From: Gallionellaceae bacterium
GTDB lineage: Bacteria > Pseudomonadota > Gammaproteobacteria > Burkholderiales > Gallionellaceae
Length of the DNA stretch: 64,000 nt
Reading direction: 5' to 3'
Assembly: GCA_004297065.1 (NCBI GenBank)
Contig: SCUU01000140.1
Span: 1 to 64,000 of the forward strand
Made by a program: the position numbers and the translations under genes. Shown here piece after piece: positions 2,348-58,647 of the stretch. Position 1 is the first letter of the stretch, and each line of letters starts with the position of its first letter. The notes under the pieces were generated by a model. That model was not told the DNA's origin and did not search any database. It was given only the letters and a program-made list of their open reading frames with translations.

Positions 2348-2899
2348 TTATTTTCCCTTCGCCACCATCACCAGCGCAGGACGCAACACGCGCTCGTTCA
2401 AGGTGTAGCCGCGCTGCATGACGGTCACCACGGTATTGGCTTCCTGCTCGCTCTCCACCATGCCGATGGCCTGATGTTTATGCGCGTCGAATTTCTCCCC
2501 AGTAGGATTGATTTCCTTGATGTTGAACTTCTCGAATACGCTGGAAAGCTGCTTCAGCGTCAGTTCCATGCCGCTCTTGAAGCTTTCCACGCTGGCGGTT
2601 TCCACGGCCAGACCGGCTTGCAGGCTGTCCATCACCGCCAGCATCTCGTTGGAAAAACGCTCGACGGCGAATTTTTGCGCCTTGCTGATGTCCTCTTGCG
2701 CGCGGCGGCGAATGTTTTCGCCCTCGGCCTTGGCGCGCAGCCAGGCGTCGTGGTGTTCTTGTGCCTTAAGTTCCGCCTGTTTGAGCATTTCTTCCATGCT
2801 GGGCATGACCTCCGGTGCTGCTTGTTGTCCTTGTGGCTCGGCAGCGTCTGTTGCGGGGTTTTGCGGCTTGTTTTCAACTTGTTCCATGTATCTCTCCAA
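2348..2899 (-). CDS. grpE: Nucleotide exchange factor GrpE
   Basis: 183 aa with GrpE core ([39 protein letters not shown]); adjacent to dnaK. Confidence 0.97.
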
Positions 2900-2916
2900 T
2901 TTATCGACCTCCCGCA

Positions 2917-2943
2917 GGTGGGGGTGACCATTGGATTTTCAAG
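2917..2943 (-). promoter_or_regulatory. Putative sigma32 (RpoH) heat-shock promoter of grpE-dnaK
   Basis: Reverse strand: CCCTTGAAA-ATCCAATGGTCA-CCCCACCT, matching CTTGAA N13 CCCCAT-like consensus upstream of grpE. Confidence 0.7.
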
Positions 2944-3008
2944 GGCAAATGCTAAAAATATTTAGGTGTGAGGTGGTGGAAATCGCTGGCGACTAAATTG
3001 GCCTCGGC

Positions 3009-3014
3009 TATAAT
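3009..3014 (+). promoter_or_regulatory. Probable -10 element of the tRNA-Leu promoter
   Basis: Perfect TATAAT 35 bp upstream of the tRNA; the -35 is weak. Confidence 0.5.
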
Positions 3015-3048
3015 GCGCGCCCTCTCTTGTTTGACGAGGGAATGGAAT

Positions 3049-3133
3049 GCCCCGGTGGCGGAATTGGTAGACGCACCAGATTTAGGTTCTGGCGCCGCGA
3101 GGCGTGGAAGTTCGAGTCTTCTCCGGGGCACCA
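3049..3133 (+). tRNA. tRNA-Leu (anticodon UAG)
   Basis: GCCCCGG acceptor, anticodon arm CCAGA-TTTAGGT-TCTGG, long variable arm, T-arm GGAAGTTCGAGTCTTC, encoded CCA. Confidence 0.96.
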
Positions 3134-3139
3134 ATCAAT

Positions 3140-3176
3140 ATGAAAATGGGCACTAGTATTTGGTGCCCATTTTCAT
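3140..3176 (+). terminator. Hairpin downstream of tRNA-Leu
   Basis: 14-bp inverted repeat ATGAAAATGGGCAC ... GTGCCCATTTTCAT directly after the tRNA. Confidence 0.7.
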
Positions 3177-3287
3177 TACGTCCCAGCTTGGGCGATTTGG
3201 GTAGAAAGCAAATGGCATCCCTCGCGGATAAGGGGCCGGACGGTCGCCGCTGGTATTCATTACGCAGTATCTTTCTGGTGAATTTGC

Positions 3288-4403
3288 ATGCGTATCCATC
3301 CCCTGATTTTTTTGTTGCTGGGCCTGTATGCCGTTACCGATGCGCAAGGACGTACCTTTGTGGCCGAAGGTTCCGATTCTGGCGCGGGCGTCGGTGCTCG
3401 ATACATTGCGCTCGGTGGTGCCGGCGCGGCAATCAGTAATGATGTCTATGCGGCCTATTCGAATCCTGCTGGATTGGCTGAATTGGAGGGCGTGGAGATA
3501 GCGGCCTCGCGCCAACTCAATGCAATACTTCAATTGGTTAGTTTTGCGGGCATGGCCGCGCGTTTGCCGCTGGATGCCAGTTGGGGATTCAAGGCAACAA
3601 TGGCCGGGGTCTATTACCCGCGCATGCATGCCCGAGCTTCGGGGGCATTTCGTGATAATGAGGTGGAGAGCATTTTTTTGCGTTATTTGCTGCCGGGTTT
3701 GCCCGGCACTTTTGATGGCGAGATCGACAGCAAGACCAAGGTCTATCGGATTGCGCTGGGATTGGGCCCCGCGAACTCCGATGTATGGTCCATCGGTTTC
3801 AACGTTGACAAGATCGATTGCCGGACGAATTACTGTGGCGTGCATGCCACTTCCAATGGATATACGACAGCGTCGGGCGGGGCTACAGCAACAAGCTATG
3901 GAGCGGGCTTCAAATATCGGCCATTGCCTGCACTCACCCTGGCTGGTGCAGTCAGTGATGTGAGCACCCGTCTCAATGTAGATGTGACAACCACCGATGA
4001 TGCGGGCACGCGGATTAATACATACCGGATTTTGTTTCCAATGAAAATGCTGTTTGGTGCAGCATACCGTTTTAGTTCTTCATTACAAGCTACGGGTGAT
4101 TACGAAATCTTTCGGGGAACATATGGCAACAATGATATTGACTGGCGATTCTTGCGCATGGGAGCAGAGGTGGCCCACTCTGAGGCGTTTATGTCGCGGT
4201 TTGGCGCAATCGTCCCGGTGGTGATCCGGTCTTCACGAATCAAGGAAGGTTCGTTGCCGTTTCCTTTTTCTCCAACGATTGGGTTGGGATACCGGCAAAA
4301 ACATTTTAGGGCGGATGTGGCGGTTTACGCACATTCCCTGATGAGTTTGCATCAAGGCGGTGTTTCACCTGCGGCTGATCTGAGCATCACGCTGAATTTT
4401 TAG
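3288..4403 (+). CDS. Outer-membrane beta-barrel protein (PorV/OMPP1-like)
   Basis: Signal peptide, GARYIALGGAGAAISNDVYAAYSNPAGLA motif, C-terminal SITLNF. Confidence 0.6.
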   Translation: MRIHPLIFLLLGLYAVTDAQGRTFVAEGSDSGAGVGARYIALGGAGAAISNDVYAAYSNPAGLAELEGVEIAASRQLNAILQLVSFAGMAARLPLDASWGFKATMAGVYYPRMHARASGAFRDNEVESIFLRYLLPGLPGTFDGEIDSKTKVYRIALGLGPANSDVWSIGFNVDKIDCRTNYCGVHATSNGYTTASGGATATSYGAGFKYRPLPALTLAGAVSDVSTRLNVDVTTTDDAGTRINTYRILFPMKMLFGAAYRFSSSLQATGDYEIFRGTYGNNDIDWRFLRMGAEVAHSEAFMSRFGAIVPVVIRSSRIKEGSLPFPFSPTIGLGYRQKHFRADVAVYAHSLMSLHQGGVSPAADLSITLNF

Positions 4404-51936: not shown

Positions 51937-51949
51937 GCAAAAAATGTAA

Positions 51950-51976
51950 GCTGGGTTGAGCGTGGCGATACCCGGC
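51950..51976. repeat. Short palindromic repeat at island left junction
   Basis: gctgggt-tgagcgtggcgat-acccggc, imperfect palindrome. Confidence 0.5.
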
Positions 51977-52021
51977 ATTCGAGGCTGTCTCAGGTCAGCA
52001 GGTCAAGGAGTAATTTGCTTC

Positions 52022-55000
52022 ATGTCCCCGCAACAGTTCATCGCAAAGTGGCAAGGCAGCACGCTCAACGAGCGGCAAAGTTACCAAGCGCATTTCGCCG
52101 ACCTGTGTGCCTTGGTCGGTGTCGAGGCACCCACTCCCGCCAGCGCGGATAACTACTGCTACGAGCGCGGCGTTACCAAGACGGGCAGCAAACACGGCTG
52201 GGCGGACGTGTGGAAGCGCGGCCACTTCGCCATCGAATACAAAGCACCGGATCGCAATCTCGATGCCGCGCTCAAACAGCTGATGACCTATGCGCTGGCG
52301 CTGGACAACCCGCCGTTGCTGGTGGTGTGCGACACCCAGATCATCCAGATACACACCCATTTCACCAACGCCCCCAGCGAGATTCACACCATCGCCCTGC
52401 AAGACCTCGACGAACCAAGCAACCTCGACAAGCTGCGCTGGCTTTTCACCGCGCCGGATAAATTTCACCCGCAACGCACCATCGCGCAGATCACCGAAGA
52501 AGCAGCGGGAAAATTCGCCGCCCTCGCGCAATCGTTGAATGCCCGTGACCATGCGCCGCAAGCCGTGGCGCACTTCCTCAACCAATGCCTGTTTTGTCTG
52601 TTTGCTGAAGATGCCGAGTTGTTGCCGGAAAAATTGTTCGAGCGTCTGCTGGATAAAAGCCAGACCGATCCGGCGAAACTTTCTTCGCGCCTCGAAGAGC
52701 TGTTCAACGCCATGCGCAAGGGCGGCGACTTCGCGCTGGAAGACATCCACTGGTTCAATGGTGGTCTGTTCGAAAATATCGAAGTGTTGCCGCTTGCCAC
52801 CAGCGAAATAAAAATCCTGCACGAAGCTGCCAAGCTCGATTGGAGCGGCATCGAACCCTCCATCTTCGGTACCCTGTTCGAGCGCGGTCTCGACCCCAAA
52901 AAACGTTCGCAACTCGGCGCACATTACACCGACCAGCAATCCATCCTGCGCATCATCAACCCCGTGGTGGTCGAGCCGCTCACGGCGGAGTGGGAGGAAG
53001 CGAAACGTATCATCGCCGGGCGCGTGGCGCTGTACGAGAAGGGTGGCAAAGGCTCCAAGATCGCCATGCAGGAAGCGCAGGGCGCATTCATCACCTACCT
53101 CGAACGGCTCAAAAACTTCAAAGTGCTCGACCCCGCCTGCGGCAGCGGCAACTTCCTCTACCTTGCCCTGCGCGTGCTGAAAGACCTCGAACACAAAGCC
53201 AACCTCGAAGCCGAACAACTCGGCCTGCATCGCCAAGTGAGCATCGAAGTATCTCCCGCCAACGTGCTCGGCATAGAACTCAATCCTTATGCGGCGGAAC
53301 TGGCGCGCGTCACCGTGTGGATCGGTGAGATCCAGTGGATGCTCAAGAACGGCTACCCCATCCGCACCAGCCCCATCCTGCAAGCGCTCGACCACATCGA
53401 GAATCGGGATGCGGTGCTTGTATTCCCTCACCCTAACCCTCTCCCGGCGGGAGAGGGAACTGACTCCCCTCGCCCTCTGGGAGAGGGGCAGGGGGTGAGG
53501 GTTGCCGACTGGCCGACCGTCGATGCCATCATCGGCAACCCGCCATTCTTGGGCGGCAGCAAGATGTTGCGCGAACTGGGCGACGATTACGTTCATGCGC
53601 TGCGTGTTGAATATGAGGGGCGCGTGCCGGGCGGTGCAGACCTCGTGACGTACTGGTTTGAAAAGGCGCGCGCGCAGATCGAAGCGGGAAAATGCCAGCG
53701 TGCCGGATTGGTTGCCACCAACTCGATACGCGGCGGCTCAAATCAAGAAGTGCTGGCGAAAATCTGCGACTCCGCGCACATCTTCAACGCGTGGAGCGAC
53801 GAAGAATGGATCAACGAAGGCGCAGCAGTACGTGTATCGCTGGTGTGTTTTGGCTCCCTCGCCCAACGGGAGATAACCAGCGACTTGCCCGCTGGCGGGC
53901 TTAGTCGAATGGCTAGTAGTTCCATCAGGGCGGGGGGTGAGGGCATCACTCTCAACGGAGCACCCGTCACCACCATCCATGCCGACCTCACCGCAGGCGA
54001 AGGTCTGAATCTCACACAAGCCAAGCCGCTCAAAGAAAATGCTGGAATCTGTTTTATGGGGGCATCGAAGAAAGGTGCATTCGATATTGAAGGTGACTTG
54101 GCGCGGCAATGGCTCAAGCTGCCGAATCCGAACGGTCGATCAAATAGTGACGTACTCAAGCCTTTATGGAACGGGCTGGATGTGGCGCGCCGTCCACGCG
54201 ATGGCTGGATTGTTGATTTTGGCACGACGATGAGCGAGGCAGATGCGGCGTTATATGAAGTGCCGTTTAGCTACGTGCAACAGCACGTCAAACCGGAACG
54301 CGAAAAAAACAATCGCGAGGCTTACCGGAAATATTGGTGGCGTCACGCCGAAGCTCGGCCTGGAATGCGAAAAGCTTTAGCTGGCTTGCCGCGCTACATT
54401 GCTACTCCAGAAGTAGCCAAGCACCGTATTTTCGTATGGATGGATAAAAGTATTCTGCCAGACCAGAAGCTTTATGCCATTGCTCATTCCGACGACACCT
54501 CTTTCGGCATCCTTCATTCGCGCTTTCACGAACTCTGGGCGCTGGCGGTTTGTTCTTGGCATGGTGCTGGCAATGACCCGCGCTACACACCGACCACCAC
54601 CTTCGAGACCTTTCCTTTTCCAGAAGGAATGACACCGACGGATGCCACGTCCCTCGCCCGACCTGTCGGCCACCCTCTCCCGCAAGCGGGAGAAGGGCTG
54701 GGGGTGAGGGGTGGTGAGATTGCCACCGCTGCGAAGAAGCTGAACGAACTCCGCAACAACTGGCTCAATCCGCCCGAATGGACAGATTGGGTGCGTACAC
54801 CCGAAGAAGAAAAAGCAGGCTATCCACTACGCCCCATCGCCAAAGCTCGCCCTCTCCCCAACCCTCTCCCGCAAGCGGGCGAGGGAGCAAACGCGGAAGG
54901 CAATTTAACTTTTGCTGCCGACCTAAAGAAACGCACCCTCACCAACCTCTACAACCAGCGCCCCGCATGGCTAGACAACGCCCACAAGACCCTAGATGCC

Positions 55001-55108
55001 GCCGTCGCCAAAGCCTACGGCTGGAACGACTACACCCTCGACATGCCCGATGAAGAGATATTGCGGCGGTTATTGGCGTTGAATCTGGCGCGCGCCTCAT
55101 CTCTTTAG
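52022..55108 (+). CDS. Single-chain Type IIL/IIG (MmeI-like) restriction-modification enzyme with several repeat-derived insertions
   Basis: PD-(D/E)XK core GWADVWKRGHFAIEYKAPDRNLDAA; MTase motifs VLDPACGSGNFLYLALRVL and DAIIGNPPFLGGSKM. Confidence 0.9.
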   Translation: MSPQQFIAKWQGSTLNERQSYQAHFADLCALVGVEAPTPASADNYCYERGVTKTGSKHGWADVWKRGHFAIEYKAPDRNLDAALKQLMTYALALDNPPLLVVCDTQIIQIHTHFTNAPSEIHTIALQDLDEPSNLDKLRWLFTAPDKFHPQRTIAQITEEAAGKFAALAQSLNARDHAPQAVAHFLNQCLFCLFAEDAELLPEKLFERLLDKSQTDPAKLSSRLEELFNAMRKGGDFALEDIHWFNGGLFENIEVLPLATSEIKILHEAAKLDWSGIEPSIFGTLFERGLDPKKRSQLGAHYTDQQSILRIINPVVVEPLTAEWEEAKRIIAGRVALYEKGGKGSKIAMQEAQGAFITYLERLKNFKVLDPACGSGNFLYLALRVLKDLEHKANLEAEQLGLHRQVSIEVSPANVLGIELNPYAAELARVTVWIGEIQWMLKNGYPIRTSPILQALDHIENRDAVLVFPHPNPLPAGEGTDSPRPLGEGQGVRVADWPTVDAIIGNPPFLGGSKMLRELGDDYVHALRVEYEGRVPGGADLVTYWFEKARAQIEAGKCQRAGLVATNSIRGGSNQEVLAKICDSAHIFNAWSDEEWINEGAAVRVSLVCFGSLAQREITSDLPAGGLSRMASSSIRAGGEGITLNGAPVTTIHADLTAGEGLNLTQAKPLKENAGICFMGASKKGAFDIEGDLARQWLKLPNPNGRSNSDVLKPLWNGLDVARRPRDGWIVDFGTTMSEADAALYEVPFSYVQQHVKPEREKNNREAYRKYWWRHAEARPGMRKALAGLPRYIATPEVAKHRIFVWMDKSILPDQKLYAIAHSDDTSFGILHSRFHELWALAVCSWHGAGNDPRYTPTTTFETFPFPEGMTPTDATSLARPVGHPLPQAGEGLGVRGGEIATAAKKLNELRNNWLNPPEWTDWVRTPEEEKAGYPLRPIAKARPLPNPLPQAGEGANAEGNLTFAADLKKRTLTNLYNQRPAWLDNAHKTLDAAVAKAYGWNDYTLDMPDEEILRRLLALNLARASSL
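53425..53501. repeat. Palindromic repeat in frame in RM gene (copy 1)
   Basis: ccctcaccctaaccctctcccggcgggagaggg...cctctgggagaggggcagggggtgagg; encodes PHPNPLPAGEGTDSPRPLGEGQGVR. Confidence 0.9.
53853..53943. repeat. Diverged repeat-like segment in RM gene (copy 2)
   Basis: ctccctcgcccaacgggag...tccatcagggcggggggtgaggg; degenerate. Confidence 0.5.
54650..54711. repeat. Palindromic repeat in frame in RM gene (copy 3)
   Basis: ccaccctctcccgcaagcgggagaagggctgggggtgagggg; encodes HPLPQAGEGLGVRG. Confidence 0.88.
54849..54888. repeat. Palindromic half-unit in frame in RM gene (copy 4)
   Basis: gccctctccccaaccctctcccgcaagcgggcgagggagc; encodes LPNPLPQAGEGA. Confidence 0.85.
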
Positions 55109-55120
55109 AGAGAATTTTCA

Positions 55121-56746
55121 ATGTCCAGCAGTGGTTCATTAATGAGGTTACGCCAAGGCAACGAGGGTGAATTTCTAAACTGGCTGGAGAAGTTGGGATT
55201 GAAGGATTTTCTGCATCATTACCCGGTACGTCGGCTTGTCGAGTGGGGGTGGTTAAGTCCGCAATCCCGCGTGATATTCCCGGAGAGTTTTTTCTTGGAA
55301 GAAGATGAACCCCCTTCCTTTGAAAGTCGTCGTCGCTCAGACTTGAAAGGTGAGCAACTACTATGGGATTCGTCTTGGTTTGTCGGTGAGAGTGAGCCTT
55401 TATGGTTCCTTGATCCTTTCTTTCGACCGGGCGACAAGGAAGGGCAAGTATTGTTTGGGAAAGACTCAGCAGGAGCTTTGCCCGCAGTGCCAGAGCCTTT
55501 CATGCACCCAGACGGAGTTGAAGTCATTCCCTTTGTGGACTACTTCTTTCACTGGCAGGGATATGCATTGATTGATGTGATTCGTACTGCTGATACTTTC
55601 GGGCCGATATTACATACACCGGACTTGAAAGAACGCCTGGCCTTCATCGAAGAGGTGCGTTCAGAAAGATTGGCCGAGTGGAATCCGGAAGAAATTTTAA
55701 CCTTGCCCACTCGCTGGGGCGGACTATCAGAGCCCATGACATGGCTGTCGCACTACCGTGATTTACGTGATGCCATCCCTTTGCATAACGCAGACAGCAA
55801 TCTACTACGCAAGGGGGCATTGGAGTTGGCTGCCTACCTTGGGGTGACAGAAGAGAAGTTGGCATATGCAGTAAAGGATCAATTGTTGGTGCTGGCGCAA
55901 GATTGGCGACGGGCAAATGATCGGTACTACGAATTGACGCAACGCGCCTATCCCTATTTGCAAGCCGATATTCAAATTGCGATGGAATGGCTGTATTTCC
56001 TAACGGGGAACGAGCTCGATTTCTATTTGGATAAATGGCAATACGACACGATGGGGCAAAGGCAGTGGGCTGAACTTCATGCAGTTCTCGAATATGAGTT
56101 TTTCACCGAACGAAAGTTTTTCATTAAAACTGCACCGAAATATCTCAATGATTACTGCAAGCAATTTGTCGATGAGAGTGGCTTGAATGGTAACAACCTT
56201 GGAATTCTGGTTGATGCCATAAGAAGCACCAACTATCCGTTTGACAGTTTCTTGGGCGCATTCCGGCAAATGCATGAAGAAATGACATACCGGTTCGAGC
56301 ATAAAGGCGGGTTGGATTTTCGTGAACGCAGGCCGCTTGTTTACTACTCGGTGCTGGCGATACGGGCGGAGGGATGTTTGCGGTTCGCTTTGGAGAAGGG
56401 AGGGATGCTTGATTCCATAGAGAATCAGGGGCTGAGCAAGTACATTGAATGTCTGGCTCAGAGGCGAGGGCTAAGCAGTAAAGCCATTGAGCGATTCAGG
56501 GGGAATCTGAATAAGACGAATTTGCATGAGGCAAAGGAATACCCCATCGCATCAATCATGAAACTGAATCTGGGGTTGTCAGAAAAAGAGAATTATTTGG
56601 TTCAGGCATTCTTGAGTTGCGTGGTGGCAAGAAATTATTTTGCACATCATTACTGTTTTGACAAAGAAGTGCGGAAGAGCAAAGAGTCTGGATTCATGTT
56701 GACGGGGATATTGGTGACAGTGCTCTATTTGTTGGATGAGCGATGA
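55121..56746 (+). CDS. Uncharacterised 541-aa protein with C-terminal HEPN-like RxxxxH motif
   Basis: C-terminus FLSCVVARNYFAHHYCFDKEV in a helical context; 12 nt after the RM gene. Confidence 0.75.
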   Translation: MSSSGSLMRLRQGNEGEFLNWLEKLGLKDFLHHYPVRRLVEWGWLSPQSRVIFPESFFLEEDEPPSFESRRRSDLKGEQLLWDSSWFVGESEPLWFLDPFFRPGDKEGQVLFGKDSAGALPAVPEPFMHPDGVEVIPFVDYFFHWQGYALIDVIRTADTFGPILHTPDLKERLAFIEEVRSERLAEWNPEEILTLPTRWGGLSEPMTWLSHYRDLRDAIPLHNADSNLLRKGALELAAYLGVTEEKLAYAVKDQLLVLAQDWRRANDRYYELTQRAYPYLQADIQIAMEWLYFLTGNELDFYLDKWQYDTMGQRQWAELHAVLEYEFFTERKFFIKTAPKYLNDYCKQFVDESGLNGNNLGILVDAIRSTNYPFDSFLGAFRQMHEEMTYRFEHKGGLDFRERRPLVYYSVLAIRAEGCLRFALEKGGMLDSIENQGLSKYIECLAQRRGLSSKAIERFRGNLNKTNLHEAKEYPIASIMKLNLGLSEKENYLVQAFLSCVVARNYFAHHYCFDKEVRKSKESGFMLTGILVTVLYLLDER

Positions 56747-56786
56747 AGCGGCAACGTACCCAAGAAATCCAATTGGAGATGATGGG

Positions 56787-57266
56787 ATGACGGTACAGAT
56801 TACAGATAGTTTGGATATTGAGGGCATGCATGCAATGGTTGCTTGCGATATGTTCATTGAGCTGCATCCGAGAATCGTTAGATTGAGCGACGAGGCGGCA
56901 GAGGAATCTTGTCCAGGAGCTTTATCTACTGCATGTCACCGGGAGTTTTGGGCGAGCTGGGCTATCAAGGGCGGCAAGTTGTATTTGGTCGATGTCATCG
57001 GCAGATTCGTATTGGTCGGTGAAGAGCCGCTGTTCGCGGAATGGTATAGCGGCACTATTCGAGCTGGTGCAGGGAAGATGTTACGTCGTCCTACTATCGG
57101 TTATGGATTGTGCGAGCGAAAAATTGAAATTGAAGTGAAAGATGGCATCGCTCTGCATCAGCGCGAGTGGCGGTTTTATTTATCCGGCAATGTAATACAG
57201 GCACCGCCCGATGCGCCGCCGCCCTATGTTGGGGAGTTGCCCTCTTGGATAAGAAAAAAACAATAA
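56787..57266 (+). CDS. Hypothetical protein (in-frame upstream ATG at 56736 overlaps the previous gene)
   Basis: MTVQITDSLDIEGMHAMVACDMFIELHPR...; GGAG SD upstream. Confidence 0.65.
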   Translation: MTVQITDSLDIEGMHAMVACDMFIELHPRIVRLSDEAAEESCPGALSTACHREFWASWAIKGGKLYLVDVIGRFVLVGEEPLFAEWYSGTIRAGAGKMLRRPTIGYGLCERKIEIEVKDGIALHQREWRFYLSGNVIQAPPDAPPPYVGELPSWIRKKQ

Positions 57267-57342
57267 CGAAGGCGGCCCATTAAGTGAAATACCCCATTAA
57301 GGTGTTGCTACGGGAAATGAAGAAATTTTGCCGAAAGACACA

Positions 57343-57558
57343 ATGAAAATTTTCCTTGGATTTGACTCGGATGAAAATATTGTCTACGCCTTCGGACATG
57401 GCAATATTGATGATGATGACGAAGGCAGTCCGCCGTTTTCGTGCAATATCAAAGCGGGAAAGAAATTCCTCGGACTTTCATTTGATGAGTTAAAAATATT
57501 TGATTGGGTTGAAACGGATGATGATGGAAATTTAATCGGCAAAGGCAAGCGTCTATGA
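57343..57558 (+). CDS. Small acidic hypothetical protein
   Basis: MKIFLGFDSDENIVYAFGHGNIDDDDEGSPPFSCNIKAGKKFLGLSFDELKIFDWVETDDDGNLIGKGKRL. Confidence 0.55.
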   Translation: MKIFLGFDSDENIVYAFGHGNIDDDDEGSPPFSCNIKAGKKFLGLSFDELKIFDWVETDDDGNLIGKGKRL

Positions 57559-57629
57559 TCGTAGAGCGCAATCCTTATCGCGCCGAATGTTAGGTTGAAT
57601 TGGTGTAATCGTCCGATTACAATCTCTCC

Positions 57630-57747
57630 CTGTACACGATCAAGCCGCTCCCTGAATTTAGCCAATGGTTGTTTGGTCTGAAAGATGGCATGACGCATCG
57701 CCGATATTGCCAAGGCCATTAAGCTGGCCGCATCTCTTGAGGAGTGA
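57630..57747 (+). pseudogene. Internally deleted HigB/RelE-type addiction-module killer protein
   Basis: LYTIKPLPEFSQWLFGLKDGMTHRR (frame 1) followed in a shifted frame by ADIAKAIKLAASLEE*, the usual two ends of this toxin family. Confidence 0.8.
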
Positions 57748-57750
57748 ACC

Positions 57751-58056
57751 ATGACCAAAAAAATCAAAATCGCCGACTTGCCTGAATTCGATATTACCGA
57801 GCACCTTGATAGCGAACAGGCGATTGCGGAATACATCACTATCGTGTTGGAAGAGAACGATCCTGCGGCCTTGGCCGATGCGCTGGGGGTTGCGGCGCGT
57901 GCGCGCGGTATGAGTGAGATCGCCAAGCAATCTGGCTTGACTCGCGAGGCGTTGTATAAAGCATTGCGCCCGGATGCGCACCCTCGTTTTGATACGATCA
58001 GCCGGGTGTGTGCGGCATTGGGCGTGAAGCTGGTCGCGCAACCTGTTCATTCGTGA
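57751..58056 (+). CDS. HigA-like addiction module antidote protein
   Basis: LPEFDITEHLDSEQAIAEYITIVLEENDPAALADALGVAARARGMSEIAKQSGLTREALYKAL. Confidence 0.93.
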   Translation: MTKKIKIADLPEFDITEHLDSEQAIAEYITIVLEENDPAALADALGVAARARGMSEIAKQSGLTREALYKALRPDAHPRFDTISRVCAALGVKLVAQPVHS

Positions 58057-58105
58057 GCGGATGTTAGAATCAATCGACGTGTACTTATGTAAACAAGGAG
58101 CAAAC

Positions 58106-58336
58106 ATGCACCCGAATGTCGAACAATTGGCAAAAGAAACAATGGCGCTGGATATTGAAGACAGGGCATTGTTGGCAGGTAAGCTGCTCTTGAGTTTGGA
58201 TGAGCCCACGCCTTCTGAAGTTGAGCGCTTGTGGTTGGATGAGGCAGAGCGTCGTCTTGAAGGTTATCGTGCGGGGCGGGTGCAGGGCATTCCTGCGGAT
58301 GAGGTGTTTCGCCGCGCCATTTCCGAGTTGTCGTGA
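58106..58336 (+). CDS. Putative addiction-module antitoxin (RelB-like, TIGR02574 type)
   Basis: ALDIEDRALLAGKLLLSLDEP...VERLWLDEAERRLEGYRAGRVQGIPADEVFRRA. Confidence 0.9.
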   Translation: MHPNVEQLAKETMALDIEDRALLAGKLLLSLDEPTPSEVERLWLDEAERRLEGYRAGRVQGIPADEVFRRAISELS

Positions 58337-58647
58337 AAATCGAGTTTTTGCCTGAAGCGGATGAGGAACTCCGCGAGGCTGCACGGTATTACGAAAGCGA
58401 AGCTGCGGGAGTTGGGTTGTCGTTTATTGCCGCAGTACATAAAGCGGTGGATGAGATTGCAGAATTGCCTCTGGCTGCTCAAGTGCAACGGGCGGGTATT
58501 CGCAAGAAGGTATTGCGTCATTTTGCCTATAACCTTTTCTACGCACTTGAATCAGACATCATTGTGATTGTTGCAGTAGCGCATCAAAGAAAACGCCCGA
58601 ATTATTGGCGTTCTCGCTTAAAACTTCGTTCGAGCGGTGGGCAATGA
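58333..58647 (+). CDS. ParE/RelE-type toxin
   Basis: MKIEFLPEADEELREAARYYESEAAGVGLSFIAAV; overlaps antitoxin stop (GTG start). Confidence 0.92.
   Translation: MKIEFLPEADEELREAARYYESEAAGVGLSFIAAVHKAVDEIAELPLAAQVQRAGIRKKVLRHFAYNLFYALESDIIVIVAVAHQRKRPNYWRSRLKLRSSGGQ

Follow-up and report, generated by a model that had tools for sequence, protein, structure and literature searches.

A rare HEPN-type protein family recurrently found beside restriction-type systems: a candidate RNase effector of anti-phage defence

In 2013, at least 16 HEPN clades with gene linkage to R-M operons were described, together with a back-up-suicide hypothesis (PMC3710099). A 2026 survey places HEPN RNases among the auxiliary effectors of BREX and DUF499 systems (PMC12839542), and HEPN effectors are likewise employed by the CoCoNuT McrBC systems (PMC11090510). 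The idea of an RM-coupled HEPN back-up is already established (PrrC/EcoprrI; PMC3710099; PMC12839542). The Rx4-6H and Ex3[KR] motifs are the main sequence features of HEPN proteins; the arginine of the former is followed by a polar residue, and an insert separates helices 2 and 3 (PMC3710099). What is new here is a HEPN-type family unnamed in Pfam, NCBIfam or PADLOC, the unassigned N-terminal region of its members and the breadth of its partners.

The gene lies in the window, that is, the whole 64,000-nt stretch of Gallionellaceae DNA that was analysed (Table 1). Its translation carries the motif FLSCVVARNYFAHHYCFD near the C-terminus of a protein of 541 residues, which has no Pfam or NCBIfam match even at E = 1. 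Searches against PADLOC and PHROG returned only weak scraps at chance level, and no PADLOC model names the protein. A PADLOC match to mad1 (E 0.009) covers 36 residues outside the HEPN region and was judged to be due to chance.

Table 1. Features of the HEPN-type gene and of the island that carries it (window positions)
Feature	Position	Strand	Basis
Island of ~6.7 kb between era and recO	51937..58643	.	era-recO spacing in relatives
Type IIG MmeI-like restriction-methyltransferase	51956..55108	+	probable start ATG 52022; same strand as HEPN-type gene
12-nt spacer, SD-like AGAGAG before HEPN-type ATG	55109..55120	+	MmeI-like gene ends 55108
HEPN-type gene, candidate RNase effector	55121..56746	+	intact 541-codon ORF, 541 aa; homologues exist
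N-terminal and central region, residues 1-351, candidate sensor	55121..56173	+	no family match
C-terminal HEPN-type domain, residues 373-541	56237..56743	+	AF2 of 352-541 and sub-threshold HEPN_Apea matches
Second HEPN motif Ex3R (E417-R421)	56369..56383	+	E417 invariant in alignment A3
Rx4H motif RNYFAHH, residues 504-510 (R504, H509)	56630..56650	+	R/A/H kept in motif-independent relatives
176-aa ORF	56736..57266	+	overlaps HEPN-type gene end by 11 nt; no family match
dnstrm_HI1420-type addiction-module antidote	57751..58056	+	PF21716 1.6e-33
Antitoxin (Unstab_antitox)	58061..58336	+	PF09720 8.3e-16
ParE toxin	58333..58647	+	PF05016 6.6e-10

Residues R504, A508 and H509 are all kept in L006, L007, L013, L014 and the Klebsiella protein P0002 (47% to 22% identity), relatives that came from a whole-protein similarity search in which the motif was not used. 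They represent three of only 27 columns, among 541 residues, that are invariant in this motif-independent set. The fit of the C-terminus to the HEPN Rx4-6H signature, proposed in the initial annotation, is therefore more than chance, and the conservation in homologues, whose lack it had named as refuting, extends down to 22% identity. In the most distant relatives the motif reads RQGNAH or RNGKAH. The position following the arginine is polar (N505, or Q in some relatives), as in other Rx4-6H motifs. RNYFAHH was itself one of the two patterns of the genome_contigs scan, so that its invariance in most loci of that scan is in part a product of selection. The Ex3[KR] motif, which played no part in selecting relatives, is present as E417-GCL-R421, takes the form R/TExxxR/K in nearly all relatives and is displaced by about one turn in L013 and L014.

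The AlphaFold model of the whole protein is of moderate quality (pLDDT 75, pTM 0.61); that of the C-terminal 190 residues (352-541) is confident (pLDDT 87.5, pTM 0.87). The latter contains helices at about 373-386, 405-426, 488-506 and 521-538, with an insert bearing smaller helices between the second and the third. R504 ends the third helix and H509 lies just beyond it. This predicted arrangement fits the canonical HEPN layout. The four-helix fold that had been proposed for verification was not confirmed by Foldseek: searches of PDB and BFVD with the whole model and with the C-terminal domain gave no significant match and no solved HEPN structure at significant level, a few HEPN entries (5yep, 9bj6 AbiV, 5fsh Csm6 and 7ae6) appearing among the insignificant matches. 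At the sequence level, the profile of the C-terminal domain had no match in PDB. Over the C-terminal region, HEPN_Apea matches L031 (E 0.0032), L030 (E 0.0037) and L033 (E 0.061), all below cut-off; no other Pfam family had matches in more than one of the 19 family members; a weak HEPN_RiboL-PSP match is placed at the same region. No member reached the cut-off of a curated HEPN model, and the window protein (P0001) had no match. Taken together, the conserved motif, the second motif, the helical model and the sub-threshold HEPN_Apea matches make it likely, although not proven, that the C-terminal domain is HEPN.

These matches raise the question of ApeA (PF18739), in which a long N-terminal region likewise precedes a HEPN-type domain at the C-terminus, in a defence context. 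However, the best HEPN_Apea score (18.3 bits) lies under the curated cut-off (24.4 bits), and the N-terminus of ApeA is described as mostly beta whereas that of the present family is largely helical in the model. Membership was rejected on the basis of this cut-off and of an hhalign comparison of alignment A4 with a true HEPN_Apea protein (probability 0.2), a test that is insensitive since A4 also failed to align with the distant relative L013.

The region upstream of the HEPN-type domain, which the initial annotation could assign to no family, indeed matches none. In the AF2 model it is mostly helical from residue 200, with low confidence at 64-117 and 160-198. The family profile gives a weak match to the archaeal primase subunit PriX (PDB 4wyh, 5of3; hmmsearch E 1.6e-4) spanning residues ~315-380 (window 56060-56260). 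The hhalign probability for PriX is 78, for a fragment picked from the hmmsearch match and hence not independent of it. From this resemblance, the segment is a possible nucleic-acid-binding module. No Pfam match to an N-terminal ABC ATPase was found in P0001 or across alignment A3. PrrC, which is linked to the type I R-M system EcoprrI, and RloC are HEPN RNases of restriction operons with a proposed second-line role in defence, as members of the present family may be, but both carry N-terminal ABC ATPase domains. By the tests run, the 541-aa protein is neither ApeA nor PrrC.

The family is rare and patchily distributed. Relatives occur in 2 of 157 other genomes of the same taxonomic family (47% identity, Nitrotoga-like) and in 3 of 398 genomes of the order, where one copy is truncated and the other two share 24-29% identity; none was found among 368 genomes of the class, among 398 of the phylum or in the phages and viral contigs searched. 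A relative of 22% identity is carried by 20 Klebsiella/Enterobacter plasmids. A scan of genome_contigs (84,980 species genomes) with the single protein found no relatives, whereas a scan with the alignment identified 24 loci. Most of these belong to Pseudomonadota, methanotrophs and nitrifiers among them; a few come from Thermodesulfobacteriota and one from Latescibacterota. Several relatives are broken (L016 at 2845-2847, L023 at ~11340, L026 at ~5185, L012 at 2658-3767) by an in-frame stop at an A tract, by single-base frameshifts or by truncation upstream of the HEPN domain; an IS interrupts some of the Klebsiella copies. Broken copies may reflect a costly gene, phase variation or assembly error; they are compatible with a costly effector.

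A restriction-type system adjoins the gene, or has left a scar there, in 9 of the 25 assessable loci. In the window, the MmeI-like gene lies at 12 nt, as had been noted from the sequence. It is a type IIG gene (Pfam MmeI_Mtase 1.5e-30; PADLOC REase_MTase_IIG, 1014 bits), with PF20464, PF20465, PF20473 and PF20466 over cut-off and N-terminal, spacer, MTase and TRD domains in one polypeptide. The short spacer with its AGAGAG suggests that the two genes may be co-transcribed. Three in-frame copies of a GC-rich palindromic repeat (CCCTCTCCC...GGGAGAGGG) at 53430-53500, 54665-54710 and 54845-54885 add PLPAGEG/PLPQAGEG peptides to this putative enzyme, one of them between methylase motifs.

The partners at other loci are of several kinds. 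L016 and L018 have a type I hsdS gene 55 and 42 nt upstream, respectively, and L029 has a type III res gene and PDC-S18, followed by AbiE genes (AbiEii). A BrxC neighbour occurs in L024, with a transposase between it and a 5'-truncated HEPN-family gene; L033 (Thauera butanivorans) has PglX and, with an 8-nt overlap, a DUF1016/PDC-S02 gene; and the order in L028 is a PglZ-like gene, the HEPN-family gene, a DUF1156 methylase and a DrmD-like (SNF2) helicase. L024, L033 and the related L028 thus recall the auxiliary HEPN effector genes within or next to BREX and DUF499 (BR) operons (PMC12839542), although the window copy adjoins a type IIG enzyme and not the BREX/BR core genes that L024 and L033 adjoin. 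The Klebsiella copy follows a coiled-coil AAA ATPase (PDC-M26A match) accompanied by a protein with a PD-(D/E)XK-like motif, an arrangement similar to that of CoCoNuT CnuE, in which HEPN RNases lie beside McrBC-type genes (PMC11090510). However, CnuE has an elongated wHTH before its HEPN domain, none being identified in the 541-aa family, and the Klebsiella neighbours (P0003/P0004) are McrBC-like by eye only. Finally, in L035 (9755-10225) an MmeI-type start (MmeI_N) continues in frame into the final ~45 residues encoded by the HEPN gene. This deletion scar implies that the two genes were arranged in the order seen in the window. The neighbours in L016, L018, L024, L028, L029, L033 and L035 were confirmed by PADLOC, Pfam or NCBIfam. 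A second scar, in L038 (1671-2084), joins a HipA-like start in frame to the same ~45-residue end, and both scars adjoin the same TA pair and a clpB-like gene.

On a 25-sequence tree, seven changes are required to account for the eight intact positives, and well-supported branches force at least four of these changes, indicating that the restriction-type association arose repeatedly. A binomial test gives P of about 2e-5 for 8 of 25, with an assumed background of 5%, and serves as a rough guide only. The remaining 16 of the 25 loci, including both nearest relatives (Nitrotoga, 47% identity), have no restriction-type neighbour. Coupling to restriction is therefore recurrent and not obligatory. 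The recurrent linkage to defence genes expected by the initial annotation is supported, at 9 of 25 loci and across several kinds of system. Its proposal of an RNase coupled to the adjacent restriction enzyme is not supported as formulated, 16 loci having no restriction gene alongside and the partner systems being too different for one guarded subunit.

This bears on a PrrC-like guard mechanism, in which the adjacent restriction enzyme would silence the HEPN protein until phage anti-restriction factors disabled the enzyme and released it, RNA cutting then killing the cell. The operonic spacing in the window, the recurring same-strand adjacency to hsdS, PglX/DUF1016 and PglZ/MTase genes and the PrrC precedent (PMC2610378; PMC3710099) are in keeping with such a mechanism, which is possible at single loci. 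It is nonetheless hard to reconcile with partners that lack a common subunit, with the loci devoid of any partner and with the lack of the ABC ATPase; moreover, PrrC is tied to one type I system, whereas the present family adjoins many kinds or none. As a general explanation, the guard seems unlikely. The loci without a restriction neighbour argue instead for autonomy.

In methanotroph-type genomes, several copies are found among urease or urea-uptake genes or close to them; two copies of the Nitrotoga type are located beside typA. In L017, L019 and L022 (methanotroph-type), the gene stands alone within the cluster of urease genes, where a defence gene would not usually be expected. Such solo copies in housekeeping contexts could have a non-defence role. 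They are compatible with a non-catalytic or housekeeping RNA-binding HEPN-like protein, whose adjacency to restriction genes would be island hitch-hiking, as unrelated cargo gathers in defence islands. Yet the putative catalytic arginine and histidine persist at 22-29% identity, a level at which little else is conserved, and a patchy, rare distribution is untypical of housekeeping genes, so that this explanation appears improbable.

The window copy belongs to an island whose cargo comprises the MmeI-like gene, the HEPN-type gene, the 176-aa ORF and toxin-antitoxin genes. The gap from era to recO is about 0-110 nt in 10 of the 13 relatives whose era was fetched, and 6.7 kb in the window. In the same genus, the spacer is about 0.5 kb in L047, and in L048 it holds RelB/YafQ-like TA genes (read by eye) and a second copy of the era 3' end; the region of L046 runs off its contig. 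The large insert and these differences identify the era-recO spacer as a variable spot accepting defence-type cargo, and the TA genes and duplicated era end of L048 suggest an integration hotspot. The window island is not bounded by direct repeats.

The 176-aa ORF has no Pfam, NCBIfam, PADLOC or PHROG family. Its overlap with the HEPN-type gene, the other TA genes in the same island and the many HEPN proteins that are TA toxins (PMC3710099) could point to a toxin with this ORF as its antitoxin. Against this, a homologue of the ORF was sought in 60 relatives and none was found, the surroundings of other copies showed no conserved small partner, and 541 residues far exceed the usual size of TA HEPN toxins. 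A TA function is thus very improbable, and the ORF was rejected as a conserved partner.

The best reading, to which we assign a probability of roughly 0.6, is that of an autonomous HEPN RNase, an abortive-infection effector with its own N-terminal sensor that is mobile among restriction operons. It fits the long variable N-terminus, the HEPN-type C-terminus and the variety of partners, and such an effector would benefit from the proximity of a first line of defence. The gene would encode a single-protein effector in which the C-terminal HEPN domain, probably dimeric, cleaves RNA, H509 and R504 acting in catalysis, while the N-terminal part of ~350 residues would hold the RNase off and sense infection or damage alone. 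The effector would move as a small module, with restriction, BREX and similar methylation-based operons as frequent targets, and would there provide a second line of defence. RNase activity, dimerisation, N-terminal sensing and anti-phage action are what we infer from sequence, model and gene context. A bolder extension, which we consider doubtful, is that the portable back-up RNase can join at least six DNA-restriction systems that differ in their biochemistry, its N-terminus sensing a feature shared by them, such as DNA-cleavage products or phage anti-restriction proteins, possibly via the PriX-like module.

In general terms, the protein probably serves as a portable second weapon against phages, of a kind that is already known. 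Among the leading candidates for a back-up that takes over once restriction has been overcome are HEPN RNases, of which, to our knowledge, only PrrC has had the link to its restriction system worked out. A rare family that recurs next to type I, IIG, III, BREX and McrBC-like genes, as well as alone, represents a natural comparison set of the same effector with and without different partners. Whether a back-up effector is tied to a restriction enzyme or independent of it thereby becomes directly testable.
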